A DNA stretch of 64,000 bases, taken from positions 1 through 64,000 of the forward strand of contig JAKOPZ010000010.1 in NCBI GenBank assembly GCA_029778615.1. Direction: 5' to 3'. The notes beneath the pieces are model-generated. The model made no database searches, was not told where the DNA came from, and worked only from the letters and a program-made list of their open reading frames with translations. Position numbers and translations under genes: made by a program. The first letter of the stretch is position 1; each line of letters starts with the position of its first letter. This document shows positions 7,293 to 49,281 of this stretch, in pieces. Source of the DNA: Chloroflexota bacterium (GTDB lineage Bacteria > Chloroflexota > Anaerolineae > UBA4142 > SHND01).

Positions 7293-7295
7293 ACG

Positions 7296-9388: not shown

Positions 9389-10472
9389 CTCAAGTTCGAT
9401 GCGCGGACGCAAAACTGGCATCGGCGCCTATACAGAGCAATTGCGGCGCGCTCTGAATACATACGCGCCGCAAATTGAAACTCTCTTGCTCGACGATGGC
9501 ATGGGCGTTGCACAGCGCACCGACCTACGCATGTGGCGCGAACAATTTACGCTGCCGCGCCTCGCGCAACAGGCGAACGCGGACTTGTTACATCTGACGG
9601 GTTTCGCCGCGCCGTTGCGTTCGCGTGTTCCCGTCATTCTGACCGTGATGGATTTGATTGGCGTTTTGTTTTCAAAAAATTTCCCGCCCGCGTCGCGTTT
9701 TTATTGGAGCCGCTATTTGCCTTTTACACTGCGCGCGGCGCGTCACATCGTCACGCTCTCCGAAAATACAAAACGCGATGTGATGCGCCTGACACGCGTG
9801 CCTGCCGAACACATCACAGTCATTCCGCCCGGCATTGACGCGCGGTTTCAAAGAATCCAAGCCGCGCCCGAATTGCAAGAAACGCGCGCGCGCTTGCAAT
9901 TGCCCGAACGCTTTTTTCTCTTTGTCAGTACGCTCGAACCGCGCAAAGGCATTGACACGCTCCTCAACGCCTATGCGAAAATCGCCGCGCAGGTGGACGA
10001 ACATCTCATCATCGTCGGCAAGCGCGGCTGGTATTACGAAACATTGTTCGCCCAAGTCCGCGCGTTGAATTTGGAAACGCGCGCGCATTTCCTCGATTAC
10101 GTTGCGGATGACGATTTGCCTTGTGTGTACACGCTTGCGACGGCGTTCGTTTTTCCGTCACGCTATGAAGGATTCGGTCTGACACCGCTCGAAGCGATGG
10201 CGTGCGGCGCGCCCGTTATTTGTTCCAATGCTGCCTCTCTGCCCAAAGTAGTTGACAAAGCAGGCATCTTGCTAGCGCCAAATGATATGGAAGGATTCGC
10301 GCGTGCGATGCGCGAACTTGCCGCGAATGAACCGCGCCGAAATGATTTAGGCGCAAAAGGATTGGCGCGCGCGAAAACATTTTCATGGCAAAAATCGGCA
10401 TTGGAATTGGCAGAGCTCTATTTCCACCTCGCGCCAAATCAAGAATCGAAAATCGAAAATCGAAAATTCTGA
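9372..10472 (+). CDS. Glycosyltransferase family 4
   Basis: A 366-residue GT4. The N-terminus VAFDSSSMRGRKTGIGAYTEQL is the acceptor-binding Gly loop of this subgroup. LFVSTLEPRKGIDTLL and [23 protein letters not shown], the latter with the E-x7-E motif, define the donor side. The start is TTG 9372, overlapping the previous gene by 17 nt; a later ATG (9399) would remove the first beta strand. The last residues are encoded by three AATCGAA heptamers, so the C-terminal tail looks like read-through of a simple repeat. Confidence 0.88.
   Translation: MRVAFDSSSMRGRKTGIGAYTEQLRRALNTYAPQIETLLLDDGMGVAQRTDLRMWREQFTLPRLAQQANADLLHLTGFAAPLRSRVPVILTVMDLIGVLFSKNFPPASRFYWSRYLPFTLRAARHIVTLSENTKRDVMRLTRVPAEHITVIPPGIDARFQRIQAAPELQETRARLQLPERFFLFVSTLEPRKGIDTLLNAYAKIAAQVDEHLIIVGKRGWYYETLFAQVRALNLETRAHFLDYVADDDLPCVYTLATAFVFPSRYEGFGLTPLEAMACGAPVICSNAASLPKVVDKAGILLAPNDMEGFARAMRELAANEPRRNDLGAKGLARAKTFSWQKSALELAELYFHLAPNQESKIENRKF
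10444..10464. repeat. AATCGAA heptamer, three tandem copies
   Basis: Three exact AATCGAA copies (10444-10450, 10451-10457, 10458-10464), followed by AATTC. They encode the tail of the GT4 ending at 10472. Confidence 0.75.
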
Positions 10473-11603
10473 ATGCGCATCACTCTTGACCTTTCGCCAT
10501 ACCTTCATCGTCACGCGGGTTTGGGACGCTACGCGGGCGAACTCTTGAACGCGCTCTGCGAATTTGCGCCGCAGCACGAATACACCGCGTTGTATCACGC
10601 GACGCGCGAACTGTCCGCGCAAGATTTGCCGCAGGCGACGCGTCCAGTGCGAGTGCCGCTGGGTGCGAAACCGTGGCGCATGAGTGTTTTGCTCGCCTAT
10701 TACGCAGGCGTGAGCATGGACCGCTGGCTGCCGGCGAGCGAAATTTTTCACGGGACCGACCATCTCTTGCCGCCGCTGAAAAATTCAAAATCCATTTTCA
10801 CCATTCACGATTTAATTTTTCGGTTTTTTCCCGAATATCATCTGCCGCTCAATCGCTGGTTTCTCGACCTCATGCTGCCGAAATTTATGCAGCGCGCGGA
10901 TGCCATTATTGCCGTGTCCGAAAATACAAAACGCGATGTGGTGCGCTTGATGAATATTCCCCCCGAAAAAATCACGGTCATTTATGAAGCGGCAAGTTCT
11001 GTATTTCGTCCGATGGAAAGCCGCGACGTTTTGGAACGCGTGCGCGCGGCGTACCAATTGCCGCCGCGCTTTATTTTATTTTTCAGTACCATCGAGCCGC
11101 GCAAAAATTTGGTCACGCTGCTTGATGCGTACGCGGAATTGTTGAGACGGCAGATTGAAATTCCGCCGTTGGTTGTCATGGGACGCAAAGGTTGGTTGTA
11201 TCAGGACACGCTGCGGCGCATTGGCGATTTGGATTTGACGCAGCGCGTCATTTTGACCGATTGGGTCGAGAGCGCGGATGTGCCAGCCGTTTTGAATATG
11301 GCGGACGTTTTTGTTTTTCCGTCATTGTACGAAGGATTTGGCTTGACGCCGCTCGAAGCGATGGCGTGCGGCGCGCCCGTCATTTCTTCCAACGCCTCAT
11401 CACTGCCCGAAGTTGTGGGGGACGCGGGAATTTTGGTCGAGCCGCGCGATGTCAAGGGCTTTGCCGATGCGATGGCGCGCGTACTGCAAGATGACGCACT
11501 GCGTCATGAATTGCACACGAAGGGTCTGACGCAAGCAAGTCGTTTTTCATGGGAACGCGCCGCGCGTGAAACTCTCGCGTTGTACGAGCGCGTGTTGAAA
11601 TAA
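10473..11603 (+). CDS. Glycosyltransferase family 4
   Basis: A 376-residue GT4, close in pattern to its two neighbours. [22 protein letters not shown] forms the acceptor loop. [17 protein letters not shown] and [26 protein letters not shown] carry the donor motifs with E-x7-E. It starts immediately after the stop of the upstream gene. The shared SENTKRDV sequence with the gene before suggests duplication within the operon. Confidence 0.9.
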
Positions 11604-12728
11604 ATGGCAACATTTCTGTTGGATGGACGAACGATTCAAGACCACTATCCGGGCATCGGGCGCTATGCGTTCAACCTCGCGCGCGCGTTGGCGGTGACTT
11701 GTCCTGAACATCGCGTGCGTATGCTGCTCGACCCGCACGCGTACAACAGTCGTTTCGACTTGGTCACGCTGACGGCGCAGCCGAATGTCGAGACGATTCC
11801 CGTGCGCGCGCGCGTTTTTTCACCCGCTGAACAGCGCATGGGGCGCAATCCTGCTTTACTTTTCAACGCGCGCGTGTGGCATTCACCTTATTACGCGCTT
11901 CCATTGACACTGCCCATTCCCGCCGTCGTCACGCTCGCGGATTTGACGCCACTCGTACTGCCGGAAGAAATGCCCAATCCTTCCAAACGCATGTTGTATC
12001 GTGTTTTGAATTTGGCGGCGGCGCGGCGCGCGAACGCAGTCCTCACATTTTCCAATGCTTCGCGTTTTGATTTGGAAAGGTTGTTGGGAATTCCCCCTGA
12101 AAAAATTTTTGTGATTCCGCTGGCAGCCGATTCAATCTTTCAGCCCGCGCGCGCGGCGGACATTGAAAATGTGCGCGTCGCGCTAAATCTGCCGCCGCAG
12201 TACGCACTCTATGTCGGCAGCAACAAACCGCATAAAAATTTGGCGCGGCTCATTCAGGCGTGGACGGCAGTGCAAGCGGAAGCGGTGTTGGTCATCGCCG
12301 GCGTGTGGGACCCGCGCTATCCGCAAGCCAAGCAGCTCGTCGCACAGTGGGGGTTGCAGGAACGCGTTCTGTTTCGCCATAACATCGCAGAAAATCTCCT
12401 ACCGACACTTATCAGCGGCGCGCGCCTATTCGTTTTTCCTTCGGTGCATGAAGGGTTCGGACTGCCTCCGCTCGAAGCGATGGCTTGCGGGACGCCTGTC
12501 GTTTGCTCACACGCATCGAGCTTGCCCGAAGTAATTGGCGACGCGGCAATGGTGTTTGACCCCTTCAACCCGCAAGACATTGCCAACACGTGCGCGCAGG
12601 TGCTGGACAATGCAAACGCGCGCTTTCAAATGCGCGCGAAAAGTTTGTACCAAGCCAAACACTTCTCTTGGGAACGCACCGCGCGCGAAACGATGAACGT
12701 GTATCAACACGTGAGCGGTGTGCTGTGA
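11604..12728 (+). CDS. Glycosyltransferase family 4
   Basis: A 374-residue GT4 with the same architecture: FLLDGRTIQDHYPGIGRYAFNL at the N-terminus, LYVGSNKPHKNLARLIQAW in the donor domain, and [23 protein letters not shown] with E-x7-E. It starts directly after the stop of the preceding gene and ends in GTGA, coupling to the next one. Likely another member of the duplicated GT4 set. Confidence 0.9.
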   Translation: MATFLLDGRTIQDHYPGIGRYAFNLARALAVTCPEHRVRMLLDPHAYNSRFDLVTLTAQPNVETIPVRARVFSPAEQRMGRNPALLFNARVWHSPYYALPLTLPIPAVVTLADLTPLVLPEEMPNPSKRMLYRVLNLAAARRANAVLTFSNASRFDLERLLGIPPEKIFVIPLAADSIFQPARAADIENVRVALNLPPQYALYVGSNKPHKNLARLIQAWTAVQAEAVLVIAGVWDPRYPQAKQLVAQWGLQERVLFRHNIAENLLPTLISGARLFVFPSVHEGFGLPPLEAMACGTPVVCSHASSLPEVIGDAAMVFDPFNPQDIANTCAQVLDNANARFQMRAKSLYQAKHFSWERTARETMNVYQHVSGVL

Positions 12729-13813
12729 AAATTCTTCATCTCTATAAAGACTATTTTCCCGTACTGGGCGGAATTGAAAATCACGTCAGGTTGCTCGCCG
12801 AAGCCCAAGCCGCGCGCGGACACGACGTTACCGTGTTGGTCACGAGTCTCACGCGCAATACGCACATTGAAACCCTAAACGGTGTGCGCGTCCTTTTTGC
12901 TGCGCGGTTATTTAATCTTTCCTCTGCGCCGTTCAGCATCGAATTCTTTCCGCGCGCGCGCGAAATAGAAACGGACATTGCGCATTTACATTCGCCGTAC
13001 CCGTTCGGAGAAATGGCGAATTATTTTTTTGGACGCGCTCGCGCCACCGTCCTCACCTATCATAGCGATATTGTGCGACAGCGCGTACTCGGTGCGTTGT
13101 ACACGCCGTTCTTGCATCGCGTTCTCGCGCGCGTCAACACTATCATTGCGACGAGTCCGAACTATATTGAATCGTCGCGCGTGTTGCAGCAATGGAAAAC
13201 AAAATGCGTGGTCGTGCCGTTGGCAATTTCACAAAACGCGCGCGTCGCACAACAAAGCAACTCGAATGGGAATCACTTACTCTTTGTCGGGCGCTTGCGT
13301 TATTACAAAGGCGTACATTATTTACTCGAGGCGCTGACGTTTTTGCCTGACGCGCGCTTGACGATTGTGGGAACGGGTCCGATGCAGCGCACATGGAAAA
13401 ATGTGGCGGAGGCATTGAACGTTTCCGAGCGCGTGCATTGGGCTGGGGAAGTGAGCGACGCGGATTTGTCGGCGTACTATGCGGCGTGCGATGTTTTTGT
13501 TTTGCCGTGCTCGGAACGCAGTGAAGCATTCGGCGCGGTACAACTCGAAGCGATGGCGGCGGGCAAACCTGTCGTATCGTGCGATGTGGACACGGGTGTT
13601 GCGTGGGTGAATCAAAACGACATTACGGGATTGGTCGTTCCGCCCAAAAATTCGCGCGCGTTGGCAGATGCCATTGCGCGCTTGTTGAATGATGACGCAC
13701 TGCGTCATAAATTGGGTAAGGCGGGACGATTGCGCGTGGAGCAAGAATTTACTCTGCAGAAAATGGTGGATGGGGTAATGCGTGTGTACGAACGTGCGTT
13801 GACAAAATACTAA
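12725..13813 (+). CDS. Glycosyltransferase family 4
   Basis: A 362-residue GT4, last gene of the operon. ILHLYKDYFPVLGGIENHVRLLAEAQAARGHDVTVL is the classic start of the PimA/WcaL-like group. LFVGRLRYYKGVHYLLEAL and CSERSEAFGAVQLEAMAAGKPVVS give the donor site. The start is GTG 12725, overlapping the previous stop as GTGA; the longer frame would overlap the whole end of the previous gene. Confidence 0.9.
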   Translation: MKILHLYKDYFPVLGGIENHVRLLAEAQAARGHDVTVLVTSLTRNTHIETLNGVRVLFAARLFNLSSAPFSIEFFPRAREIETDIAHLHSPYPFGEMANYFFGRARATVLTYHSDIVRQRVLGALYTPFLHRVLARVNTIIATSPNYIESSRVLQQWKTKCVVVPLAISQNARVAQQSNSNGNHLLFVGRLRYYKGVHYLLEALTFLPDARLTIVGTGPMQRTWKNVAEALNVSERVHWAGEVSDADLSAYYAACDVFVLPCSERSEAFGAVQLEAMAAGKPVVSCDVDTGVAWVNQNDITGLVVPPKNSRALADAIARLLNDDALRHKLGKAGRLRVEQEFTLQKMVDGVMRVYERALTKY

Positions 13814-23334: not shown

Positions 23335-26300
23335 ATGTTCCCACCTTCCCGTCTCGCACTGTTTTGCGAAAAATTCATTCAAGTCGGCTGGCTCGTCGCC
23401 TTGATTCTCGCTCCGCTCTTTTTCAACATTTATTCGAGCCGCGTCTTTGAACCTGACAAAATCACATTGATACGTTCGCTCGCCCTGGCAATGGCTGCCA
23501 TGTGGCTCGTGCTGCGCGCGGAACGTTGGCGCGGGCGCGCGGTGGTGCGCCGACGCGAAACGGCGTCCGGTCTCCCTCTCCGCGCGTGGGCAACGAATCT
23601 CTCGGACGACAATCCGCTGACCCTCCCGACATTATTTTTGATTCTCGCCTACATCATCAGCACAGTGCTTTCGCTTTCACCCACAGTTTCGTTTTTTGGT
23701 TCGTATCAACGTTTGCAAGGTCTCTACACCTACTCTGCCTATCTCGTCATTTTTTTCCTCGCCGCCGGTCTTGTGCGCACCCGCGCGGATGTGGAACGCG
23801 CCATCAACATCGTCCTGGTCGTCAGTTTTCCCATCGCCGTATACGGCATCCTTCAACATTATTTTGTTGACCCGCTGCCGTGGGTCGGCGACGTAACCAC
23901 ACGCGTTGCTTCGAATTTGGGCAATTCGATTTTTATTGGCGCGTTCCTCATTCTCACTATTCCGCTTGCGCTCGCGCGCTTGCTTGAATCCGCACAGCGG
24001 GTCGCCAAAACGGTTGCGCCGCCGTTGGCAGTTTACGCCGCCGTGCTCGTTACGCTGCTCGCGGTGGCTGCCGCGTGGGGCTTGACCTTTGACCTCGGCG
24101 CGAAACCGCTCATCGAAACCAACTACACCGGCACGCTCACACCAGAGCAACTTGTGCTCGCGTCGGGCGCGTTCCATCTCGCGTTCTTTGCATCGGTGCT
24201 TGTGATTGCATTGTGGTGGGGCGTCGCCTTTTTGCTCAAACAGCGCGTGAGTAATTTTCTCTTGGTCGGTTTGTATGCGGCGCTGCTCGCGATTGAATTG
24301 GTCGCGCTGTTATTTTCGCAGAGTCGCGGTCCTCTGCTCGGCATTCTCGGCGGCTTGTTCACGTTTGGCGTCCTCTATGCCATTGTGCGCGGGGCGCGCC
24401 GCGTTGCACTGGGCTCCGTCGGCGCAGCGTTGACGGTGCTCGTGCTCCTCGCGCTCATCAATATCCCCAATTCGCCGCTCTCGCCACTGCGCGATTTGCC
24501 GTACATCGGGCGCATGGGACGCGTGTTTGAACTGGAAGGCGGGACAGGACGCGTGCGCGTGTTGATTTGGCAGGGCGCGTTAAAATTGGTTGTCCCTCAC
24601 GAGCCATTATGGTCGCCGCTCTCCGGAGATGACGCCTTTAACATCGTGCGCCCGCTGTTCGGCTATGGACCCGAAACGATGTATGTGGCGTACACCAAAT
24701 TCTATCCGCCCGAACTCGGCACGCTGGAATCGCGCAACGCGACGCCCGACCGTTCGCACAATGAAACGTTCGACGCGTTGGTTACCACCGGACTCTTTGG
24801 GTTCATCGCAGAAAATATTTTGTTCCTCACCATTTTCTATTTCGCGCTGAAATGGCTCGGCTTGATGCCGTCCACGCGCGCGCGCAACTTATTTATCGCG
24901 TTATGGTTCGGCGTCGGCGTTTTGCTCGCGGTGCTTTTCGGTTTCGCACTCGGCTGGGAATTTATTGGCGTCGCCCTGCCGGGCGGAATGATTCTCGGGA
25001 TGTTTGTGTATCTCATTGCGTTCACGCTGCGGAGCCGAAACGAAACGAATGAACCAACGCCCAATGCTTTGTGGCTTGTCGCGCTCACTTCGATTTTTGT
25101 CGCGCATTTCGTCGAAATCCATTTCGGGATTGCGATTGTTTCTACGCGCCTTTACTTTTGGTTTTTTGCGGCGGTGTTTGTGCTGCTCGGACTCGGACGC
25201 GTCACGATGCAAGAAGAGTTCGCGCCGACCATTGTCGAGCCCAAAGAGAAACTCGCTGCGGAGGCGAGCGCGCCGCGACGCAAACGCACTCAAACCGCTG
25301 TCTCGGGCACTGCGCGCAGAGAACAGCCCGCCGTGCGCCGCGTTTCCACCGCGCCATTGATTACGTATGCGTTCTTGGTCGGCTTGATGCTCGCGGTGAT
25401 GGGTTATGATTACATCACCACAAACAACATTGGCACGCTCGGCGGTCAGGCGATGAGCGGTTTGGACATTGTGCGGAGCGCGCTCACGTTGAAACAAACG
25501 ACCGAAGGGGTGATGCCGTCTTTTGCGATGCTCTGGCTGTTTGTGGGGACGCTGTGGCTCGGGTTGGGGATATGCGCGAACGAATGGGGACGCAGTTTTA
25601 GACTCGGCGCGCGCGATTGGAGTGTCGCAGTCCTGCTATTTCTCGTATTGGCGTTTGCCATTTTTTCGGGGCTCGCGTTTTATCACATTCTCTTGATTGC
25701 CACCGTCGGCGAAACGATTCTCGACGCGCTCTTGACTGCCGTCGTAATGTTTTACGTTTTCACATTTCTGGTCGTCATCGTCTGCGCGATTACGCTGATG
25801 TTTGATGAACCTCTGCCCACTGTTTGGGTGAATCGCACCACCAATTATGTGGTCTTGCCCGTGCTGGCGCTCGTCGCGCTCGTTTTGATTTTGGCAACCA
25901 ATATTGACCCGATTCGCGCGGACATGTTGTACAAACAAGCCGCGAATTTGACGGGGCAGGACAATGCGCGCGCGATTACATTTTTGCAGCGCGCGCTCGC
26001 GCTCCAACCACAACAAGATTATTACGATTTGTTCTTGGGACGCGCGTATTTGGACGCCGCGAAAAGCGCGACGGATGTGGCACAGCAGGTGGATGATTTG
26101 AATCTAGCACAACAAGCGCTTGACCGCGCGCGCGACATTAATCCGTACAACACCGACCATTCCGCGAATCTCGCGCGTTTGGCGCAAGCGCGCGGCGCGT
26201 TGGCGCGCGACCCAGCTGTGCAAATTGATGCGTACAAGCAAGCGGCAGTGTATTTCGACCAGGCGAATCGGCTCAGCCCGAACACCGCGCATTTGTACGA

Positions 26301-27222
26301 CCAGCACGCGCAAGCGCTCTTGGAATATGCGGATGTGCTGAAAGCGAACGGCAAGAGTAATGACGCCATTATTGATTTGGCGCGCCAACAAATCCAAAAC
26401 GCGTTGAACGTGGACGCGACCTTTTGTCTCACCTACGCCGTCCGCGCGCAGGCGCAGACGGCGTGGCGCGCGCGCGTTGCCGACGCCTTGAAAGCGATAG
26501 AGTATGCGCCGCAATGCGGCGATGTGTTTTACAGTGAAGGTTTGTCGCTCGCGGTGAATGAATTGGCGCACGCCGGCGATGAAGCGGCGGCTGCCAAAGA
26601 AGACGACGCGTTCGAACAAGTCATGAGCCAAGCCGCGCAAACAAATCCTTCGCTCGAAGTTTTTACGACGCTCGCGAATTTTTATTCCAAAGCCGGACGC
26701 GTGACGCAAGCCATCGCCGCGACGGACGGCGCGCTCGCGCACATTCCCGCGAACGACGCGACCACGCGCAAACGCTACGAGGATTTTCGTTTTACGCTGG
26801 TTGAATTGCAAAAGGCGTTGGACGCGGCGAACGCATCGCCGCAAGATGTGGAATTGCAGCGCGCAGTCGCGCAGCAGTGGCTCGCGCGCGGGCAAATTGA
26901 TTTTGCGCTGCCCGCGTATCAACGCGTGCTCGCGCTCAAACCCGATGATTTGGACGCGCAACGTCAGGTGACACTGTTGTTGATTGCGAGCGACCAATTG
27001 ACAGAGGCACAAGCGCATTTGGCGTTTGTGCTGGCACATGCGCCGGCGGAACAAGCCGCATTGTGGCAAGGATTGAATCGCGTGCTGAGCGACATTGCCG
27101 CGAACAATACGGACGATGCGATTTCGCAGTTGGACGCGCTGGTAAAAAATGCCGACAAGAATGATTTCGCGTTGATGAGCGCGTTACGCCAACTCGCCAC
27201 AAGTCTGCACGCCGGGGGTTGA
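23335..27222 (+). CDS. O-antigen ligase/polymerase-like membrane protein with TPR domain
   Basis: A 1295-residue protein. About twelve or more membrane segments fill residues 15-860, interrupted by a basic Arg-rich loop (about 640-670). The Wzy_C/WaaL-type core holds SQSRGPLLGILGG (residues 328-340) and the extracytoplasmic loop with RSHNETFDALVTTGLFG near 473, as in ligases and polymerases of lipid-linked glycans. From about 865 the rest is TPR-like helical repeat. It likely joins or polymerises polysaccharide outside the membrane, with the TPR part binding partners. WecA-like and dehydrogenase genes follow closely. Confidence 0.85.
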   Translation: MFPPSRLALFCEKFIQVGWLVALILAPLFFNIYSSRVFEPDKITLIRSLALAMAAMWLVLRAERWRGRAVVRRRETASGLPLRAWATNLSDDNPLTLPTLFLILAYIISTVLSLSPTVSFFGSYQRLQGLYTYSAYLVIFFLAAGLVRTRADVERAINIVLVVSFPIAVYGILQHYFVDPLPWVGDVTTRVASNLGNSIFIGAFLILTIPLALARLLESAQRVAKTVAPPLAVYAAVLVTLLAVAAAWGLTFDLGAKPLIETNYTGTLTPEQLVLASGAFHLAFFASVLVIALWWGVAFLLKQRVSNFLLVGLYAALLAIELVALLFSQSRGPLLGILGGLFTFGVLYAIVRGARRVALGSVGAALTVLVLLALINIPNSPLSPLRDLPYIGRMGRVFELEGGTGRVRVLIWQGALKLVVPHEPLWSPLSGDDAFNIVRPLFGYGPETMYVAYTKFYPPELGTLESRNATPDRSHNETFDALVTTGLFGFIAENILFLTIFYFALKWLGLMPSTRARNLFIALWFGVGVLLAVLFGFALGWEFIGVALPGGMILGMFVYLIAFTLRSRNETNEPTPNALWLVALTSIFVAHFVEIHFGIAIVSTRLYFWFFAAVFVLLGLGRVTMQEEFAPTIVEPKEKLAAEASAPRRKRTQTAVSGTARREQPAVRRVSTAPLITYAFLVGLMLAVMGYDYITTNNIGTLGGQAMSGLDIVRSALTLKQTTEGVMPSFAMLWLFVGTLWLGLGICANEWGRSFRLGARDWSVAVLLFLVLAFAIFSGLAFYHILLIATVGETILDALLTAVVMFYVFTFLVVIVCAITLMFDEPLPTVWVNRTTNYVVLPVLALVALVLILATNIDPIRADMLYKQAANLTGQDNARAITFLQRALALQPQQDYYDLFLGRAYLDAAKSATDVAQQVDDLNLAQQALDRARDINPYNTDHSANLARLAQARGALARDPAVQIDAYKQAAVYFDQANRLSPNTAHLYDQHAQALLEYADVLKANGKSNDAIIDLARQQIQNALNVDATFCLTYAVRAQAQTAWRARVADALKAIEYAPQCGDVFYSEGLSLAVNELAHAGDEAAAAKEDDAFEQVMSQAAQTNPSLEVFTTLANFYSKAGRVTQAIAATDGALAHIPANDATTRKRYEDFRFTLVELQKALDAANASPQDVELQRAVAQQWLARGQIDFALPAYQRVLALKPDDLDAQRQVTLLLIASDQLTEAQAHLAFVLAHAPAEQAALWQGLNRVLSDIAANNTDDAISQLDALVKNADKNDFALMSALRQLATSLHAGG

Positions 27223-40054: not shown

Positions 40055-40261
40055 CTAGTCAAGACGTTGCTGTGTGCGATACCAATCGTTCAGCGCTTCG
40101 GACAATTCAAATTCGGCAGAGCCAATATCCAACATCGCGCTCGCCGTCTCGTCATGGTCCGGGTTCTGTTTGAGCGTATTGCTCCGTTTTTGAATTACCT
40201 TTTCTTGATATTTGCGTGCGGCTTTGGCAACGCGGCGCAGAGCATTCAGTTCTTTGTCCAT
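40055..40261 (-). CDS. Small helical protein of unknown function
   Basis: A 68-residue, highly charged protein, predicted to be mostly alpha-helical (for example the run ELNALRRVAKAARKYQEKV). GGAG lies about 10 nt before ATG 40261, and a hairpin with a T run follows on the same strand, so it looks like a real single-gene unit. I do not recognise the family. It is divergent from the HPr-kinase-like gene and could be unrelated to it. Confidence 0.6.
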   Translation of the reverse strand: MDKELNALRRVAKAARKYQEKVIQKRSNTLKQNPDHDETASAMLDIGSAEFELSEALNDWYRTQQRLD

Positions 40262-40347
40262 GATTGTGAGCTCCGAAAAAAATTTTCCCCCCAGCCGACC
40301 TAAGGTGAGAATACCACTTGGCGCAAAGCAACGTCAACAGATTTTTA

Positions 40348-40376
40348 TTGCAAAATCGTTACAAAGCAGTTAAAGT
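40348..40376 (+). promoter_or_regulatory. Promoter of the HPr-kinase-like/GT unit
   Basis: TTGCAA (40348-40353), a 17-nt spacer, and TAAAGT (40371-40376). The start would fall near 40383, leaving only about 6 nt before ATG 40389, with no ribosome-binding site. Confidence 0.5.
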
Positions 40377-40388
40377 AGCCAAAAATAG

Positions 40389-41456
40389 ATGCTTTCTGAA
40401 TCCCTACAGACTTTTGCCGCCGGCTTTTACCGCCACGTGGATGAAACCTTCCAACGCGCGGTATCAAAATTGGGCGGCACACATGATTTCGATTTTTCCA
40501 TCGCCGGACACATTGTGCGTCTCAGTTTTGCGGGAACTGCAACCGTCGCCGCGCTCACGCGCGCGCTCGCGCATCTCCGCGTGCACGGCGTGACGACGGC
40601 AGAGATTACGATTCAGATATGGGAAGTTCAAGAGAGCGGCATCGCGCCGCCGCCGCCGATTTGGGGGACGGACGCTTACGCGCAGCGCGGTGAGGTGCGC
40701 GGATTCAACGACGCGCGCTACGCGACCGTTTTTCATCCCGACGGACGAGTCTTGTTTGTGTACGACGCGGTGGAGCGGCGGGGCACGGTTGTAGTTTTTG
40801 ATACGGCGGACTTGCCCGCGTACGAGCGCGCCGCGCCGCTCCGTCCAATTCTGACCCAAGCGCTGGCTTTATACGGAACACAGTACGCTCACGCGGGAGC
40901 GGTGGGATTTCCGGATGGCGGTGTGCTTTTGGCAGGCAAAAGCGGCGCGGGAAAATCCACCACTTCGCTCGCGTGCTTGAATTCCGATTTATTGTTTGCC
41001 GGTGATGATTATTGCGCGCTGCAAGTGGACAAGCAGCCCATTGCGCACAGTTTGTACAACAGCGCCAAAGGCACGTCGCAAACCGTCGCGCACTTGCCGT
41101 TTCTCGAACCGTATATTCAATTTTGGGATACCGAAGGTTCCGCCAAAGCGATTTGGTATTTGTACGAGCATCTGCCGCACAAAATGATTTCGCAGTTTCC
41201 ACTGTGCGCGATTTTGCTTCCGCGCGTGACGAGACAAGTCTCTACGCATTTAATCTCCGCGCCGCCCCATGCTGCGCTGGTCGCGTTGGCGCCCAGTACC
41301 ATTCAACAATTGCCCAATGCCGACGCGCAGGTCTTGCGGCGGCTCGCGGTCATTGCGCGCCATCTGCCCTGTTATTATTTGGATGTGGGAACAGACATGG
41401 CGCAAATTCCCCAAACGATTGAAAATTTCCTGTATATGCAAGGAGCGCGCCAATGA
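40389..41456 (+). CDS. HPr kinase-like P-loop protein
   Basis: A 355-residue protein whose C-terminal half resembles the HPr(Ser) kinase fold: HAGAV (168-172), Walker A GKSGAGKST (183-191) and the acidic pair in FAGDDYCAL (206-207). The N-terminal ~150 residues are not the usual HprK domain and I do not recognise them. No HPr or PTS gene is seen. Family members of this kind are often encoded beside glycosyltransferases or peptide-modification genes. Here two GT genes follow with ATGA overlaps, so it may phosphorylate a sugar, a glycan intermediate or a partner protein. Confidence 0.78.
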   Translation: MLSESLQTFAAGFYRHVDETFQRAVSKLGGTHDFDFSIAGHIVRLSFAGTATVAALTRALAHLRVHGVTTAEITIQIWEVQESGIAPPPPIWGTDAYAQRGEVRGFNDARYATVFHPDGRVLFVYDAVERRGTVVVFDTADLPAYERAAPLRPILTQALALYGTQYAHAGAVGFPDGGVLLAGKSGAGKSTTSLACLNSDLLFAGDDYCALQVDKQPIAHSLYNSAKGTSQTVAHLPFLEPYIQFWDTEGSAKAIWYLYEHLPHKMISQFPLCAILLPRVTRQVSTHLISAPPHAALVALAPSTIQQLPNADAQVLRRLAVIARHLPCYYLDVGTDMAQIPQTIENFLYMQGARQ

Positions 41457-43225
41457 AAAAAAAGCGCGCGCTCACCACATTACTGCTCGGCGCAAGCTAT
41501 CAAGCATTCTGGAACCGCTACTGCCGCGCGAACTGGGAACAATACGCCGCGCGCCATGATGCCGACTTGATTCTTTTCGACACGCCGCTCGACGACTCGC
41601 CGCGCGCCAAAAGACGCGGCGTGGCATGGCAAAAACTTTTGACGCCGGTTCAACCGCAAACGCGCGACTATGAACAATTGGTGTGGCTCGACGCAGACAT
41701 GCTCATTCATCCGCGCGCGGCATGGGTCGGCACTGATGTCCCATTGCATCTCGTCGGCGCAACCGACGAATACGCGTATCCCACCCCGGATTTGAATCGC
41801 CGCGCGCTCGCGCAGTTGTACGCCATTTGGGAAAAGAATCGTGTCCCCTTTGAGCGCAACCTGACGCCGCAAGAATTTTATCGTGTGGCGGGTTTCCCTA
41901 TCGAGTTTGACCGCGCGGTGCAATCGGGCATGTTGGTCCTCTCTCCGCGTTATCACCGCGAGCTGTTCGCATACGTGTATGACCATTATGAGGAAGCGAC
42001 CCAACTCAAGGGGTTACGAGAGGAAATGCGCCCGCTCTCATTTGAACTGTTGCGCGCGCAGCAGGTGCATTGGCTTGACGCGCGCTGGTGCGCGAATTGG
42101 TTGTTTTACCAGACGCTCCACTTTCCGTTCTTGCATCCGGAAAACGCGTCTCTCTTGTTGACGCGCTGTATCACGCGCGCGCTCTCTGCCAATTACTTTT
42201 TACATTTTGCGGGCGCGCATCATCAAATCTCAGCAGTAGATTTCGACGACCCGTGTTTCGCTGCCCCGCCTCGGTCTGCCCCCCCCCCTTCAAGCCCCGC
42301 CGCGCCATGCACAAGTCCTGTCGCGCTGTTTGTGTTCAATCGTCCGGACACCACCGCCCAAGTGCTCAAGACAATTCGCGCCGTGCGCCCGCGCGAGCTG
42401 TATGTAATTGCTGACGGACCGCGCGCGGAACATGCGGACGATGACGCGCTGTGTCGCGCGGCGCGTGAGGTTGCACTGCAAATAGATTGGGACTGCGCCG
42501 TCAAGACAAATTTCGCGGAAAAAAATTTGGGACTGAAAGCGCGCGTCGAAAGCGGACTGGATTGGCTGTTTCAACAGGTGGCGGAAGCGATTGTGCTCGA
42601 AGATGACTGTGTGCCGGACGCGACCTTTTTCCGCTTTTGCGATGAGCTGCTGGAACGTTATCGCCATGACGAGCAAGTGATGATGATTTCCGGATGCGAT
42701 TTCAAATTCGGCTTGAGCCGCAGCACAAGCAGTTACACATTTTCGCGTTATCCACTCATCTGGGGTTGGGCGACGTGGCGACGCGCGTGGGCGCGCAATG
42801 ACCCGAACATGTCCACACTCCCGCGCGCGATGCAAACAAATCGTCTGCGCGAACTTTTGGGCGACGCACATGCCGCGCAATACTGGGCATTCGTCTTGTA
42901 CGACAATTACAAAACGCATACGACATGGGATTACGCGTGGCTGTGGAGCATCTGGGAACACGACGGCTTGTGCGTTCATCCAAACATCAATCTCGTCGCA
43001 AACGTTGGCTTTGGCGCGAACGCCACACACACACGCGATGCCGACAATTTATTTTCGCAAATGCTGCGCGCGCCCATGCCATTCCCGCTCACCCATCCGC
43101 CCAACATCGCGCGCAATCCGGACGACGATGCGTTGATTGAAGAAATTGCGTTTGGCGGGACCATTCGCCGCCTTTGGCAAAGGGTGCGCGGACAGCGCGC
43201 CATACATCACGCGCAGCCAACATGA
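41453..43225 (+). CDS. Two-domain glycosyltransferase fusion
   Basis: A 590-residue protein. The N-terminal domain (1-265) has a GT-A style site LVWLDADMLIHP (DAD at 80-82) of a GT8/nucleotide-diphospho-sugar type. A Pro/Ser-rich linker (about 270-287) joins it to a second GT-A domain (from 289) with VALFVFNRPDTTAQVLKTI, YVIADGPR, KNLGLKARVESGLDWLF and VLEDDCVPD (EDD at 383-385), as in GT2-like HlpA-type proteins. It thus could add two sugars in sequence. It overlaps genes on both sides as ATGA. Confidence 0.82.
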   Translation: MKKKRALTTLLLGASYQAFWNRYCRANWEQYAARHDADLILFDTPLDDSPRAKRRGVAWQKLLTPVQPQTRDYEQLVWLDADMLIHPRAAWVGTDVPLHLVGATDEYAYPTPDLNRRALAQLYAIWEKNRVPFERNLTPQEFYRVAGFPIEFDRAVQSGMLVLSPRYHRELFAYVYDHYEEATQLKGLREEMRPLSFELLRAQQVHWLDARWCANWLFYQTLHFPFLHPENASLLLTRCITRALSANYFLHFAGAHHQISAVDFDDPCFAAPPRSAPPPSSPAAPCTSPVALFVFNRPDTTAQVLKTIRAVRPRELYVIADGPRAEHADDDALCRAAREVALQIDWDCAVKTNFAEKNLGLKARVESGLDWLFQQVAEAIVLEDDCVPDATFFRFCDELLERYRHDEQVMMISGCDFKFGLSRSTSSYTFSRYPLIWGWATWRRAWARNDPNMSTLPRAMQTNRLRELLGDAHAAQYWAFVLYDNYKTHTTWDYAWLWSIWEHDGLCVHPNINLVANVGFGANATHTRDADNLFSQMLRAPMPFPLTHPPNIARNPDDDALIEEIAFGGTIRRLWQRVRGQRAIHHAQPT

Positions 43226-44676
43226 AAGTATTGCTTGTTGTGCCGCGTTTGGTGCCCGGCGGCGCGTGCCGCTCGACAATTGATTTGGCGCGCGCCGCAG
43301 GCGCGCAATTCCCTTTGCAATTTTCCATTCTCTCGCTAGCCCAAGCCGACCCACAACTTGTACAGCAAGTGAGCGCGGCGGGACTGGAAGTTGTTCCGAA
43401 TCAGGATGCCGAAACGGTCACGCGCGCATTGGCGCACGCGGACATTGTGCATCTCGGATTTTGGAACACGCCCGAAGTGTATGGCTGGCTCAAAGCGCCG
43501 CTGCCCGCGCGGCGTCTCGTTATCACATACCACATCAACGGCGCATTTCCATCCCAAGTTATCACCCAGTCGGTCTTGGAGATGGCGGATTGGAACATTA
43601 TCGCAACCACGCGCACACGCGACCTGCCGGTAGTGCAACGCGCGCGGGCAACGCGCCCCGAACGCTTTTGCATTATTCCTTCCGCCGCGCGCATGGTTGA
43701 CGTTGAATCCGAACGCGCACAAAATCATCGTGTGCGTGTGGGTTACGTAGGAACCGTAGATTTTGTTAAAATGCATCCGCGCTATGTGGAAATGTGCGCG
43801 GCGGTGAATTTGCCCGATGTAACATTTTGCGTCGCCGGTAGTGGGGATGGATTCAAAACACTCGCGCGACAAGCGCAGGCGCGCGGCATTGAGCATCAAT
43901 TTGAGCTGCGCGGATATTTGACACACCCAAATCCGTATCTCGCCACGCTCGATATTTTTGGTTATCCGTTATGTCGCGAAACGTATGCGACGACAGACCT
44001 TGTTGTTCAACAAGCGATGTGGCAAGGCGTGCCGCCGGTCATTCTGCCCTACGGCGGCGTGACCGACCTTGTACAACACCGGGAAACGGGAATGATCGTT
44101 GCGCCCGAAGCGTATGCGGAAACACTTCGCGAACTCGTTTTGAACGAGCCACTGCGCGCGCGGTTGGGCGCGCACGCACGCGCGTACGCGCGCGAACATT
44201 TCGGCGCGGACAAACACGCGGTATCATTACATACCGTGTACGAGCGCGCGATGCAGTTTGATAAAGACACGCGCGCGTGGCACAGTGAAATATCTGCTTC
44301 GCGCTTTGCCGGCGCCGACGCGTTTATGGAATCCATCGGCGGATTTGCCGCGCCGTATCGCGACAGCGCGAACGGTGACGACGCGATGAAAATTCGCGCG
44401 GCAGAGAAACACATCGCCAATGCACTGCCCGGCGAGTCCGGATTCGGTGGCGGAGGATTTTTGGATTATCGGCGCGCGTATCCGCAAGATGCGCTCCTGC
44501 GGTTGTGGTCGGGCTTGGTGCTGGGACAGGCGGGACGTTATGCGCTCGCTGCCGCAGAATTTGCTGCGGCGCGCGCATTTGGTTTGGATGCGGCGCGCGT
44601 CGAGCCCTATTTGCAACGCGTCGCGGAACATCTGCCGCCTTTTGAGCAAGCACAAGAGGCAAAGCATTCGCAATGA
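43222..44676 (+). CDS. Glycosyltransferase family 4 with C-terminal helical extension
   Basis: A 484-residue protein. GT4 domain (1-365): VLLVVPRLVPGGACRSTIDLA, VGYVGTVDFVKMHPRYV, and the donor region PLCRETYATTDLVVQQAMWQGVPPVILPYGG. About 110 extra residues follow, ending in a TPR-like segment (LWSGLVLGQAGRYALAAAEFAAARAFG). ATG 43222 overlaps the upstream stop as ATGA. The extension may bind a partner of the HPr-kinase-like/GT unit. Confidence 0.85.
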   Translation: MKVLLVVPRLVPGGACRSTIDLARAAGAQFPLQFSILSLAQADPQLVQQVSAAGLEVVPNQDAETVTRALAHADIVHLGFWNTPEVYGWLKAPLPARRLVITYHINGAFPSQVITQSVLEMADWNIIATTRTRDLPVVQRARATRPERFCIIPSAARMVDVESERAQNHRVRVGYVGTVDFVKMHPRYVEMCAAVNLPDVTFCVAGSGDGFKTLARQAQARGIEHQFELRGYLTHPNPYLATLDIFGYPLCRETYATTDLVVQQAMWQGVPPVILPYGGVTDLVQHRETGMIVAPEAYAETLRELVLNEPLRARLGAHARAYAREHFGADKHAVSLHTVYERAMQFDKDTRAWHSEISASRFAGADAFMESIGGFAAPYRDSANGDDAMKIRAAEKHIANALPGESGFGGGGFLDYRRAYPQDALLRLWSGLVLGQAGRYALAAAEFAAARAFGLDAARVEPYLQRVAEHLPPFEQAQEAKHSQ

Positions 44677-44757: not shown

Positions 44758-45555
44758 ATGTCTGAATTTTCGCTGTTGAGTTTAAATACATTTGGACTGC
44801 CGATGTTTTTAGGTGTTGGTCGCTTGCTTCGTCTCACCCGTCAGCTGGACCGCTTTCCAACATCCGTTTTGTGTTTTCAAGAAATTCAGCAAAACGCGTA
44901 TGTTCCGTTATTGAATCGCAGTCTGCCCGACTATCCGCATCGCGCGTTTGAATCAAGTTTCTTTGCGCCGAAAGGCGGCTTGTTCACGGCGGCGCGTCCG
45001 CCGCTGTTGGCGAGTCATTTTGTGCCGTACGAAAATCGCGGACGCCCCTTGAGCGCGGGATTCGCGGATTGGGCGTTGAACAAAGGCGTCCTGCAATCCG
45101 AGATGAATATCGAGGGACAGCGCGTTGTAGTGATGAACACGCATCTACACGCCAACTATGCGGGACACTGGCATCCCGATAACAGCATGTCACGAATTCA
45201 GCGTGACCAGGTGCTGCATCTTGCCGCGATGGTTAATGAACATGATGCCGATACGTTGGTGATTGTGTGCGGCGATTTTAATTTTCCGCGCGGTACGTTT
45301 TTGTACCAAGAACTATTGAGTGCGGCGCCTTTGGACGACCCGCTTGCCGATGACCCGCGTCCAACGTATCGTCCCTTTCCGCTGATGCCGACGAAATATT
45401 CGATTCCGATTGATTTTGTTTTGGTGCGCGCGCCGCTGCACCGCCGCGTGAGGTTAGATGCCGACATAGTGGAAATTCAAGATGAATCGCGCAGGTTCGC
45501 GCCGCGACGTTTCTTGACGGACCACAACGCGCTGACATTGCGCGTGCAATGGTAG
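44758..45555 (+). CDS. Endonuclease/exonuclease/phosphatase (EEP) family hydrolase
   Basis: A 265-residue metal-dependent hydrolase. The EEP motifs appear in order: SLNTFG, CFQEIQQ (metal Glu), NTHLHANY, CGDFNFPRG (catalytic Asp/Asn), IDFVLVRA and LTDHNALTL. Long loops (for example near 100-125) resemble sphingomyelinase-like members, so the substrate may be a phospholipid or nucleic acid. No signal peptide is seen, which favours a cytoplasmic enzyme. Confidence 0.85.
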   Translation: MSEFSLLSLNTFGLPMFLGVGRLLRLTRQLDRFPTSVLCFQEIQQNAYVPLLNRSLPDYPHRAFESSFFAPKGGLFTAARPPLLASHFVPYENRGRPLSAGFADWALNKGVLQSEMNIEGQRVVVMNTHLHANYAGHWHPDNSMSRIQRDQVLHLAAMVNEHDADTLVIVCGDFNFPRGTFLYQELLSAAPLDDPLADDPRPTYRPFPLMPTKYSIPIDFVLVRAPLHRRVRLDADIVEIQDESRRFAPRRFLTDHNALTLRVQW

Positions 45556-45594
45556 CTTTAACATCACACGACGGGACTTGGTTTACAAACTTTG

Positions 45595-48500
45595 ATGGAT
45601 ACGTTACTCGCCTTTATTCCGATTGACCGCCAAATCGCGTTGGCATCGTACATTCCTCTCCGCGCCAACACACGCGGCGCCGCGCTCTTTGCCGACCTGT
45701 CCGGCTTTACGCCGTTGACTGAGGCATTGGTGCGCGCGTTGGGCGCACAGCGCGGCGCGGAAGAATTGACGCGGCAGTTGAATTTGGTGTACGACGCGTT
45801 GATTTCCCAAGTGGAAAATTATCGCGGGACGGTCATCGGCTTTAGCGGAGATGCCATCACGTGTTGGTTTGAAGACGACGAAGGTTTGCGCGCGCTCGCG
45901 GCGGCGTTGGCGATGCAAAGCCAAATGGAAAATTTCGCGGCGGTGCCGATTCCCAATGGCGGGACGGTGGCGCTCGCGCTCAAAGCGGCGGTGGTCAGCG
46001 GACCCGTGCGGCGTTTTGCCGTCGGCGACCCCGAAATCCAATTGATTGATGTTTTGGCGGGCGCGACGCTGGACCGGCTCGCGGAAACCGAACATCACGC
46101 GGACAAAGGCGAAGTGGTAACGAACGCGCAAACTGCGCGCGCGCTCGGCGATGCCATTCATGTGGCGCGGTGGAAACAAGAACACGATGTCGCGTATGCT
46201 GTCGTGGACGCGCTGCGGCATCAAGTGGTACCGCAACCGTGGGAACGTCCCGAACGCAACGCGCTGCGCGCCGACGAAATTCGCCCATGGCTTTTGCCCG
46301 AAGTGTTTACGCGCCTTTCCTCCGCGCAGCCGTCCTTTCTTGCCGAGTTGCGCCCGGCGGTTTCACTGTTCATGCGTTTTGGCGGAATTGATTTTGAACA
46401 AGACGCAGACGCGGGCGCCAAGCTCGACGCGTATGTGAAATGGGTTCAAGGCGTTGTCCATGCCTACGACGGCATTCTCGTCCAACTCACCATCGGCGAC
46501 AAAGGCAGCTATTTGTATGCCGCGTTCGGCGCGCCCATCGCGCATGATGACGACGCCATTCGCGCGGTGCGCGCCGCGCGCGAATTGCAGCAGCCCCCCG
46601 CGCATTTGCATTACATCACGCCGCCGCAAATCGGCATCAGTCGCGGGCGCATGCGCGTTGGTCCGTATGGCGGCACCACGCGCCGCACGTATGGTGTTTT
46701 GGGCGACGAAGTAAACGTCGCCGCGCGTTTGATGCAAGCCGCGCGCGAGGGACAAATTCTCGTCACCGAGCGCGTTGCCGATGTGACCGAGCGCGCGTTC
46801 GAGTACGAACGGCTCGAACCCATTCGCGTCAAAGGGAAAAGTGAACCGCTGCGGATTCTGGCATTGACGCGCGAACGCGCCGAAGTTGCGCGCGCGATGG
46901 AAGAAGATTACGCGCTGCCAATGGTCGGACGCACACAGGAACTCGAAATCATTCAACACGCCGTCGAGCGCGCGAGCGGCGGCGAAGGACAAGTGATTGT
47001 TTTGATGGGCGAAGCGGGGGTGGGCAAATCGCGTTTGGCGCACGAAGCGCTGCGGCGCGCGGTGCGCGCGGGGTTTGAACAGTATCGCGGCGAATGTCCC
47101 TCGTACGGCGCCAACAGCAGTTATTTGGTTTGGCATTCCATTTGGCGCGCGTTTTTTGAAATCGCGAACGATGTGACACTTGCAGAGCAAATCGCGCAAT
47201 TGGAAACGCAGCTGCGCGAAATTAATCCGAATCTCGTTTTGCGCGCGCCCCTGCTCGGCGCGGCGCTGAACCTTCCGATTCCCGAAAACGACTTGACACG
47301 TTCGCTCGACGCGCGCGTACGAAAACAATTACTGGAAGGATTACTGCTCGAATGTGTTCGCGCGCGCGCGCTGGAAACACCCCTCGTCTTTTTATTGGAA
47401 GACTTGCATTGGATTGACGCGCTGTCACAGGACTTGTTGGAGGCGCTGGCGCGCGATGCCACCGACCTCCCCAATCTCTTTATCGTCACGCTTCGCCCGC
47501 CCGATTTGGAACGCGGCGGCGCGCGCGGCGAAGCCACCACACGGCTCTTGCGTCTCGCGCATACCACGCTCTTGCAGCTCGCCGACTTTTCACGCGAGGA
47601 TGCGGCGCAGTTGATTGCAATGAAATGGCAGCAAGAAGATGAGGGCAGGCGACCGCTGGACGCGCAAGTTGTGGAACGCTTGACCGCGCGCGCCGGTGGC
47701 AATCCGTTTTATATCGAGGAACTGTTGAACTATATGCGCGACCGCGGACTCGACCCGCGCGACCCGCGCACGCTCGACGCGTTAGATTTGCCCGATAGTT
47801 TGTCGTCGTTGATTCTCAGTCGCATTGACCGCTTGTCCGAAGCGCAGCGCTCCACCCTCAAAGTGGCGAGCATCATCGGCAGGCAATTTTCGTTTCAGTG
47901 GTTGTGGGGCGTCTATCCCACACTGGGCGAAACGACGACTGTGCGTACGGACCTCGACGACATGAGCCGCCTTGATTTGACGCCGCTCGACCAGCCCGAC
48001 CCACAGCGCTCGTACATTTTTCGTCATGCGCTCACGCATCAAGTGACGTACGAAAGTCAACCCTACGCGACCCGCGCGGAATTGCACGGACACCTCGGTT
48101 ATTTTTTGGAAACGGCGTATGGAGATGAAATTGAAAACTATGTTGACTTGTTGGCGTACCATTTTGACCGCAGTGAAGTGACCGCCAAGCGGCGCGAATA
48201 TTTAATCAAGGCAGGCGAACAAGCCCAAGCGGAATACGCGAACGACGCGGCGATTTCGTATTATCGGCGCGTGCTGCCGCTTTTGAGCCGACCCGAAAAA
48301 CTTGGCATCATGTTGAAACTCGGGCAAGTCTATGAAGTGGTCGGACAGTGGAATGAAGCGAGCACGTTGTATCAAGAGGGTTTGGAATTGGCAGGACAAT
48401 TGCACGATGCCGCTGCGGATGCGCGCTATCGCGCCGCGCTCGGTGTACTGTCGCGCAAGCGCGGCGATTTTGCCGCCGCAACCGAGTGGCTGGACCAAGC

Positions 48501-49281
48501 GCGCACCCGATTTCAAGAATTGAACGACCGCGCCGGTATTGGACAGGTGCTGCACGAATCCGGCACCCTCGCGGCGCAGCAGGGTGAACTGGATAAGGCG
48601 CGCGCCTGTTATCAAGAGAGTTTAGAGATTCGCCGCGCAGCGGATGAAAAACGTTTGATAGGAAATCTGTTGAGTAATCTCGGCATCATTGCGCGCATGA
48701 AAGGCGAGTACGAGAGCGCGGAAGCATTGTACGGCGAAGCATTGACCCTGCGCCGCGAAATCGGAGACCGCTGGGGCATTGCCGTTTCACTGAACAATCT
48801 CGGACTGCTGAAACGCTTTCAAGGCGAATTCGCGCAAGGACGCGCGATGTTGGAAGAATCGCTCGCGCTGTGGCGTGAAATCGGTGACCGTTGGTTTTTG
48901 GCAAACACGCTGACCAGTTTGGGCGAAGTTTTGATTGACCAGAGCGAGGGCACCGCCGCACGTGAACGTTTGGAAGAGAGTCTCACCATTACACGCGCGC
49001 TGGGCGATAAACGTTCGATTGCGTTCTTGTTGGAAAATTTTGCGCGCGTTGGCATTTTGCAGCGCGAAGCACTGCGCGCGGTCAAACTCGCGGGCGCGGC
49101 GAGCGCGCTGCGTCAATCTATTGGCGCGCCGCTGCCGGAAGCAGAGCAAAAGATTTTGGACGAACGATTGCAAACGGCGCGCGAGACGTATGGGGAACAG
49201 GTCGTGCAGGAGATGTGGGAGGCGGGCAAACAATTGACGATGGATGAAGCGATGGCATACGCGCTATCCGACGCGACTTGA
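45595..49281 (+). CDS. Adenylate/guanylate cyclase-AAA ATPase-TPR regulator
   Basis: A 1228-residue protein. Two class III cyclase domains come first. Domain 1 (about 25-200) holds both metal Asp residues (FADLSGF, D34; FSGDAIT, D86). Domain 2 (about 255-420) has Arg261 at the first metal position but carries the transition-state pair in VNVAARL (Asn374, Arg378). An AAA/NB-ARC-like ATPase (Walker A GEAGVGKS, 472-479; FLLEDLHWID) and about eight TPR units (roughly 880-1190) follow. The pair probably works as an internal pseudo-heterodimer. TTG 45592 is one codon earlier and less likely. Confidence 0.88.
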   Translation: MDTLLAFIPIDRQIALASYIPLRANTRGAALFADLSGFTPLTEALVRALGAQRGAEELTRQLNLVYDALISQVENYRGTVIGFSGDAITCWFEDDEGLRALAAALAMQSQMENFAAVPIPNGGTVALALKAAVVSGPVRRFAVGDPEIQLIDVLAGATLDRLAETEHHADKGEVVTNAQTARALGDAIHVARWKQEHDVAYAVVDALRHQVVPQPWERPERNALRADEIRPWLLPEVFTRLSSAQPSFLAELRPAVSLFMRFGGIDFEQDADAGAKLDAYVKWVQGVVHAYDGILVQLTIGDKGSYLYAAFGAPIAHDDDAIRAVRAARELQQPPAHLHYITPPQIGISRGRMRVGPYGGTTRRTYGVLGDEVNVAARLMQAAREGQILVTERVADVTERAFEYERLEPIRVKGKSEPLRILALTRERAEVARAMEEDYALPMVGRTQELEIIQHAVERASGGEGQVIVLMGEAGVGKSRLAHEALRRAVRAGFEQYRGECPSYGANSSYLVWHSIWRAFFEIANDVTLAEQIAQLETQLREINPNLVLRAPLLGAALNLPIPENDLTRSLDARVRKQLLEGLLLECVRARALETPLVFLLEDLHWIDALSQDLLEALARDATDLPNLFIVTLRPPDLERGGARGEATTRLLRLAHTTLLQLADFSREDAAQLIAMKWQQEDEGRRPLDAQVVERLTARAGGNPFYIEELLNYMRDRGLDPRDPRTLDALDLPDSLSSLILSRIDRLSEAQRSTLKVASIIGRQFSFQWLWGVYPTLGETTTVRTDLDDMSRLDLTPLDQPDPQRSYIFRHALTHQVTYESQPYATRAELHGHLGYFLETAYGDEIENYVDLLAYHFDRSEVTAKRREYLIKAGEQAQAEYANDAAISYYRRVLPLLSRPEKLGIMLKLGQVYEVVGQWNEASTLYQEGLELAGQLHDAAADARYRAALGVLSRKRGDFAAATEWLDQARTRFQELNDRAGIGQVLHESGTLAAQQGELDKARACYQESLEIRRAADEKRLIGNLLSNLGIIARMKGEYESAEALYGEALTLRREIGDRWGIAVSLNNLGLLKRFQGEFAQGRAMLEESLALWREIGDRWFLANTLTSLGEVLIDQSEGTAARERLEESLTITRALGDKRSIAFLLENFARVGILQREALRAVKLAGAASALRQSIGAPLPEAEQKILDERLQTARETYGEQVVQEMWEAGKQLTMDEAMAYALSDAT

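Follow-up and report, generated by a model that had tools for sequence, protein, structure and literature searches.

An inserted kinase and glycosyltransferase cassette in a Chloroflexota genome and the tail-bearing PqqD-fold partner of its relatives

Gene organisation of the locus

Three overlapping open reading frames were present on the forward strand at 40389-44676 of the window (the whole 64,000-nucleotide stretch of DNA that was analysed), as the initial annotation had described. The first (40389-41456) encodes a kinase of 355 amino acids with the HprK/PEPCK fold. The second (41453-43225) encodes a fused protein with two putative glycosyltransferase (GT) domains, at 41453-42298 and 42299-43225. 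For the third, a GT4 glycosyltransferase, the longest reading frame covers 43174-44676 from a TTG codon, but the ATG at 43222 is the more likely start, because it gives a 4-base ATGA overlap like that of the first junction and the TTG is favoured by frame length only; the protein then has 484 amino acids (43222-44676). The ATGA overlaps at 41453 and 43222 couple the three frames. Upstream of the kinase lies an intergenic stretch (40262-40388), the position that is occupied by a PqqD-like gene in two sister cassettes, and before it a gene for a 68-residue protein on the reverse strand (40055-40261). A gene of the endonuclease/exonuclease/phosphatase family, recognised with Pfam, follows the GT4 gene on the forward strand (44758-45555).

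The kinase

As a single sequence, the kinase matched Pfam Hpr_kinase_C with an E-value of 4e-4, which was below the cut-off, and an HPr kinase in the PDB with an E-value of 0.017. A profile of 21 members reached the solved HPr kinases in the PDB at 1e-5. The AlphaFold2 model had a pLDDT of 94.7 and was aligned by Foldseek with PEP carboxykinases along almost its entire length (E-value 2.8e-10, TM about 0.5); among viral structures, viral PEPCKs were the only matches. These results agree with the earlier assignment as a P-loop kinase of the HPr-kinase type. As the model matches PEPCKs over nearly its full length, the N-terminal part of about 150 residues, which had been taken for an unrecognised domain, instead belongs to a PEPCK-type fold as its N-terminal lobe. 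Residues H168, K189 (in the P-loop GKSGAGKS), D206, D207 and K253 were present, so that the His, P-loop Lys and Asp-Asp pair of the PEPCK-type P-loop kinases are all found. The kinase is about 50-55% identical to its closest relatives, and all catalytic residues are nevertheless kept.

The score against the HPr kinase/phosphorylase equivalog TIGR00679 was 22.4 bits, far from the cut-off of 240 bits, and the RGLG signature of HPr kinases was not found in the window kinase. The absence of HPr and PTS genes noted previously holds for the surroundings of the locus, but not for the genome: a single HPr domain was found on another contig (C93), within a DhaM-HPr-PtsI-like protein (L195, 2423-4864), where it carries the Ser46-like sequence NAKSINAV.

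The glycosyltransferases

Neither half of the middle protein matched a Pfam or NCBIfam family. The N-terminal half, a putative GT-A domain, has a DAD motif (residues 80-82) only. The C-terminal half has EDD at residues 383-385 and the sequence GWATWRRAW; its stand-alone relatives, of about 320 residues, share conserved EDD and GWATW motifs and gave weak matches to GNT-I and GT2-like models. A PDB profile search with the C-terminal domain returned nothing significant, and AlphaFold2, run on a two-sequence alignment of the double protein, gave a pLDDT of 30 and no usable model. Given the weak GNT-I-like and GT2-like matches of the relatives and the DAD and EDD motifs, the middle protein is a probable rather than a proven glycosyltransferase. 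What had been annotated as a double glycosyltransferase is therefore a two-domain fusion as described, with halves whose GT identity is probable. The whole fusion was seen in the window and in the related genome G003 only, and the C-terminal half recurs alone.

The third protein was confirmed as GT4 (Pfam Glycos_transf_1, 2.2e-18), and has a C-terminal extension of about 130 residues. Its family recurs beside the C-terminal-type GT at three further loci (L180, L182 and L170). The window order of kinase, C-terminal-type GT and GT4 was also observed in a genome of a second phylum (G361), and the pair of C-terminal-type GT and GT4 adjoins the kinase in G350 and in G188, the latter cassette additionally having several GT2 genes.

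The insertion site

In three congeners (G001, G002 and G004; loci L167, L168 and L169), the gene of the 68-residue protein is directly followed by the phosphatase-family gene. The cassette occupies exactly this gap in G003, in G005 and in the window. These empty sites indicate that the cassette was inserted between the two genes, and 40389-44676 is one inserted unit. The 68-residue protein, which the initial annotation had considered as a possible member of the unit, is conserved in each of the five congeners sampled (58-74% identity). Its gene was found in all six genomes of the genus, with or without the cassette, including one with neither the kinase nor the tail protein described below; it is therefore a real gene but a resident neighbour, independent of the cassette, and was ruled out as a component. 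It marks the upstream border, as the phosphatase-family gene, also resident and not part of the cassette, marks the downstream one. Further downstream (45592-49281), a protein of 1229 amino acids with a cyclase-like domain, an AAA ATPase and TPR repeats is encoded, and this gene is kept beside the cassette slot in the relatives L003 and L167.

A tail-bearing PqqD/RRE protein in related cassettes

In L003 and L004, which are sister cassettes in the same slot, in L005 from an Acidobacteriota metagenome-assembled genome (MAG), and in many more, the kinase gene is immediately preceded by a gene whose product has the PqqD/RRE fold and a C-terminal tail (tail-PqqD). The tail proteins scored above the PqqD cut-off of PF05402 (E-values of 1.4e-16 and 1.5e-9). 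The tail, of about 20 residues, is near-invariant, with the consensus KYTDMQDLLLLDPIHEVDExGWP. Over 34 tails, D120, D128, P129, H131 and G137 were invariant and W138 and P139 nearly so. No Ser, Thr or Tyr was invariant among them; position 119 was T or S in 28 of the 34 and otherwise D, E or N. A related cassette is harboured by a plasmid of the cyanobacterium Crinalium epipsammum PCC 9333. Neither the motif DPIHDVD nor the term 'HprK-related kinase' was found in the literature searched, and searches of it for PqqD, HPr kinase and glycosyltransferases in combination yielded chiefly a survey of lasso peptides.

A separate precursor peptide of the YxxP/WxxP type was also considered, and none was conserved near the cassettes. 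The 1038 small ORFs near cassettes yielded no conserved precursor candidate, including any with a YxxPxV leader. Among the small peptides of the cassettes, the tail alone is conserved.

The tail-PqqD gene is absent from the window locus, and no remnant of it was found there. The only tail protein of this genome is encoded on another contig (C229 of G000), followed by two GT2 genes and with no kinase. In gene trees this C229 set grouped with a mini-cassette of G003 (contig C265), from which it follows that C229 is not simply the lost half of the window locus; a relocated half was accordingly not favoured. Rather than a moved fragment, the C229 set is probably a second locus, already present before the adaptor was lost. 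Split cassettes were observed in other genomes too: at L076, L082, L083 and L088 the tail-PqqD gene lies beside MsbA-type ABC genes, and the kinase and GTs of the same genomes are at another site.

Co-inheritance of the kinase, the tail protein and the glycosyltransferases

A census of the class covered 298 genomes, with thresholds of at least 123 bits for the tail-PqqD and at least 286 bits for the window-type kinase. The tail-PqqD was present in 18 genomes, the kinase in 19 and both in 18 (Fisher 6e-28); with the own genus removed, the numbers were 13, 14 and 13 (Fisher 1e-21), these Fisher values being descriptive and weakened because related genomes are not independent samples. For a second phylum (297 genomes) the corresponding counts were 9, 10 and 9, and the tenth kinase genome (G506) has an adjacent PqqD gene with a degenerate tail. 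In the class sample, only one kinase came from a genome lacking the tail protein (G274; L146, 9650-10801); it has no GTs nearby, and its catalytic positions are altered (H to N, DD to DS and K to E).

Cassette-type GTs were located within 5 kb of 31 of 33 window-type kinases and of none of nine more distant HprK-like kinases (Fisher 1e-7, again descriptive). The kinase loci were sampled partly through the tail-PqqD and partly through the kinase itself, and neighbouring genes were labelled by comparison with cassette references. The two window-type kinases without GTs were L026, at a contig edge, and the G274 orphan. Three of the nine distant kinases are part of lasso-type sets that include B2 and AsnB genes. 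The comparison of homologue neighbourhoods that had been proposed with the initial annotation thus found a constant link between kinase and glycosyltransferases, and their coupling as one co-inherited unit is upheld. The window copy has the adjacent GTs and lacks the adjacent tail-PqqD. Some cassettes include a PF14907 nucleotidyltransferase and an ABC exporter, both lacking in the window, and some are neighboured by FkbM methyltransferase, sulfotransferase and SDR genes. The relatives and the source genome are mostly MAGs, in which a missing gene can reflect an assembly gap.

Comparison with known systems

The best reading of the cassette is that it resembles a phospho-RiPP maturation set, related to the sets of RRE, HprK kinase and nucleotidyltransferase of the paeninodin-type lasso peptides and of the LPPs. 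The LPP sets combine an LppK kinase with an RRE, an NTP transferase and an MsbA-like exporter (PMC13381572, Nat Commun 2026). The cassettes share with them a discrete PqqD/RRE protein, an HprK-like kinase and, in some cases only, the NTP transferase and MsbA-like exporter, as well as a location in GT-rich surface-polysaccharide loci and a patchy distribution. In contrast, the LPP sets were reported from Bacillota only, and they encode their precursor separately (LppA, with a YxxP leader) together with LppS, a protein of the signal-peptidase type (PMC13381572), whereas in the cassettes the RRE has an invariant C-terminal tail, GTs are core genes and no precursor was found.

The lasso sets of the paeninodin and pseudomycoidin type (PadeK, ThcoK, PsmK, PsmN) likewise have an HprK-like H-K-D-D kinase beside a PqqD B1 protein. 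These four residues are reportedly essential to lasso kinases (PMC9266682), and H168, K189, D206 and D207 of the window kinase correspond to them. The same review describes, for pseudomycoidin, phosphorylation and sugar transfer on one peptide, by PsmK and then PsmN (PMC9266682). Unlike these sets, the window-type kinases have no lasso cyclase, B2 protease or precursor nearby: an AsnB-like cyclase with a B2 protease was not found within 8 kb of any of them, and the pair does accompany three of the distant kinases (L151, L152 and L031). The lasso-type kinases of the class scored below 80 bits and had no GTs within 5 kb.

The HPr-rel-A models (TIGR04352/TIGR04353) also describe a PqqD-like peptide chaperone with an HprK-related kinase, but the cassette proteins did not reach either cut-off (16-40 bits against 200 for the kinases, 31 against 35 for PqqD), and the PqqD model, of 74 residues, does not cover the tail. 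With HPr kinase/phosphorylase and PEP carboxykinase the window kinase shares the P-loop PEPCK fold; it differs in having no HPr-kinase signature, no nearby HPr gene and other genomic company.

Proposed function and alternative explanations

The existence of the cassette, its border at this locus and its missing partner can be stated with high confidence. The three window genes represent one copy of an accessory, patchily distributed and mobile cassette, which occurs in three phyla (Chloroflexota, Acidobacteriota and Cyanobacteriota). Its core consists of the tail-bearing PqqD/RRE-fold adaptor, the HprK/PEPCK-fold kinase and a varying complement of glycosyltransferases (GT2, GT4 and GNT-I-like); the PF14907 nucleotidyltransferase and an MsbA-type ABC exporter are often present as well. 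The adaptor may bind and present an acceptor, which the kinase would phosphorylate; the GTs, with the nucleotidyltransferase where present, might then build a sugar on the phosphorylated acceptor, yielding an exported or surface phospho-glycoconjugate or glycopeptide. This biochemical order of events is tentative, and we rate it at somewhat below an even chance. In this genome, the window kinase and GTs may depend on the C229 tail protein in trans, or else be idle; the pairing in trans is an assumption, as the window copy has no tail-PqqD, GT2 genes, local nucleotidyltransferase or transporter. Taken as a whole, an accessory phospho-glycoconjugate or glycopeptide pathway, split in this genome, is the best explanation overall, with a probability of roughly 0.5; this and the other conclusions rest largely on MAGs and on sequence comparison. 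The most likely role of the tail is to dock the kinase rather than to accept the phosphate: no other partner is as constant as the kinase, and phosphorylation at the tail is disfavoured because none of its hydroxyl residues is invariant.

The main rival is that the substrate of the kinase is an intermediate of surface-polysaccharide synthesis (a sugar, a nucleotide-sugar or a lipid), the PqqD-tail protein being an assembly or regulatory adaptor only and no peptide being modified. The constant company of GTs, the FkbM methyltransferase, sulfotransferase and SDR neighbours of some cassettes, the separate EPS-like cluster at 5-27 kb of the window and the failure to find a precursor near the cassettes would all fit such a role. 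It is nonetheless rather unlikely, since the characterised RRE-adjacent HprK-like kinases phosphorylate a peptide Ser (PMC13381572, PMC9266682) and the H-K-D-D residues are retained here.

The tail-PqqD might alternatively be adaptor and substrate at once, its own tail being phosphorylated at the T or S of YTDM and then glycosylated. The gene adjoins that of the kinase, the tail is the sole conserved small peptide, and a hydroxyl residue occupies position 119 in most tails. However, the invariant tail residues are D, D, P, H and G, with no Ser, Thr or Tyr among them, the cassettes with a T to D change (L005, L084 and L087) still have intact kinases, and an S/T/D/N pattern is also usual for a helix N-cap. 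The substitutions by D, E or N weaken the tail Thr as an obligatory phosphosite, and we consider this explanation improbable. The same low standing is given to the broader proposal that the tailed RRE is a self-contained carrier, its one chain uniting the adaptor with a peptide that is invariant across phyla, and that the kinase and GTs would build a phosphate-linked glycan on it. If true, it would imply a peptide-primed phosphoglycan pathway of an undescribed kind in at least Chloroflexota, Acidobacteriota and Cyanobacteriota.

Slightly less probable again is that the window copy is a decaying remnant with no present function, having lost the adaptor and two GT2 genes. The sister cassettes in the same slot do have these genes, and no trace of the adaptor is left at the locus, but the three frames are intact and tightly coupled, the catalytic kinase residues are all kept despite the divergence from the closest relatives, and a tail protein is available in trans on C229. 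That the kinase is an HPr kinase for carbon regulation, as its HprK-like P-loop and the Ser46-like C93 domain could suggest, is very improbable given 22 bits against 240 for the equivalog, the missing RGLG signature and a kinase family that travels with tail-PqqD and GTs.

The present data supply a partner list (tailed RRE, HprK-like kinase and GTs) for a widespread and apparently undescribed cassette, and connect phospho-RiPP-type machinery with glycan synthesis outside Bacillota. The invariant 20-residue tail offers a compact handle on kinase recruitment versus modification. Should the kinase and GTs act on a common acceptor, glycosylation through a phosphate, of which pseudomycoidin is an example, would extend well beyond the handful of lasso peptides in which it is known.

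Other loci of the genome

A surface-polysaccharide-like cluster was observed elsewhere in the window (5135-13813 and 23335-27222), comprising a flippase-type protein, one GT2 and four or five GT4 genes in a row, and further on a 1295-amino-acid protein that combines an O-antigen ligase domain with TPRs. On contig C60 of the same genome (L044), two small ORFs (6205-6390 and 11023-11235) with W-E-T-P-x-[VL] leaders adjoin genes for a PqqD protein, an AsnB-size protein, a PF14907-like nucleotidyltransferase and a sulfotransferase-like protein; they are probable lasso peptide precursors with their cluster. A second lasso-type set of this genome is present on contig C103 (L031, 1639-5267), with AsnB-like, lasso B2-like and PqqD genes, close to which a nucleotidyltransferase and a divergent kinase of the HprK-like type are encoded.
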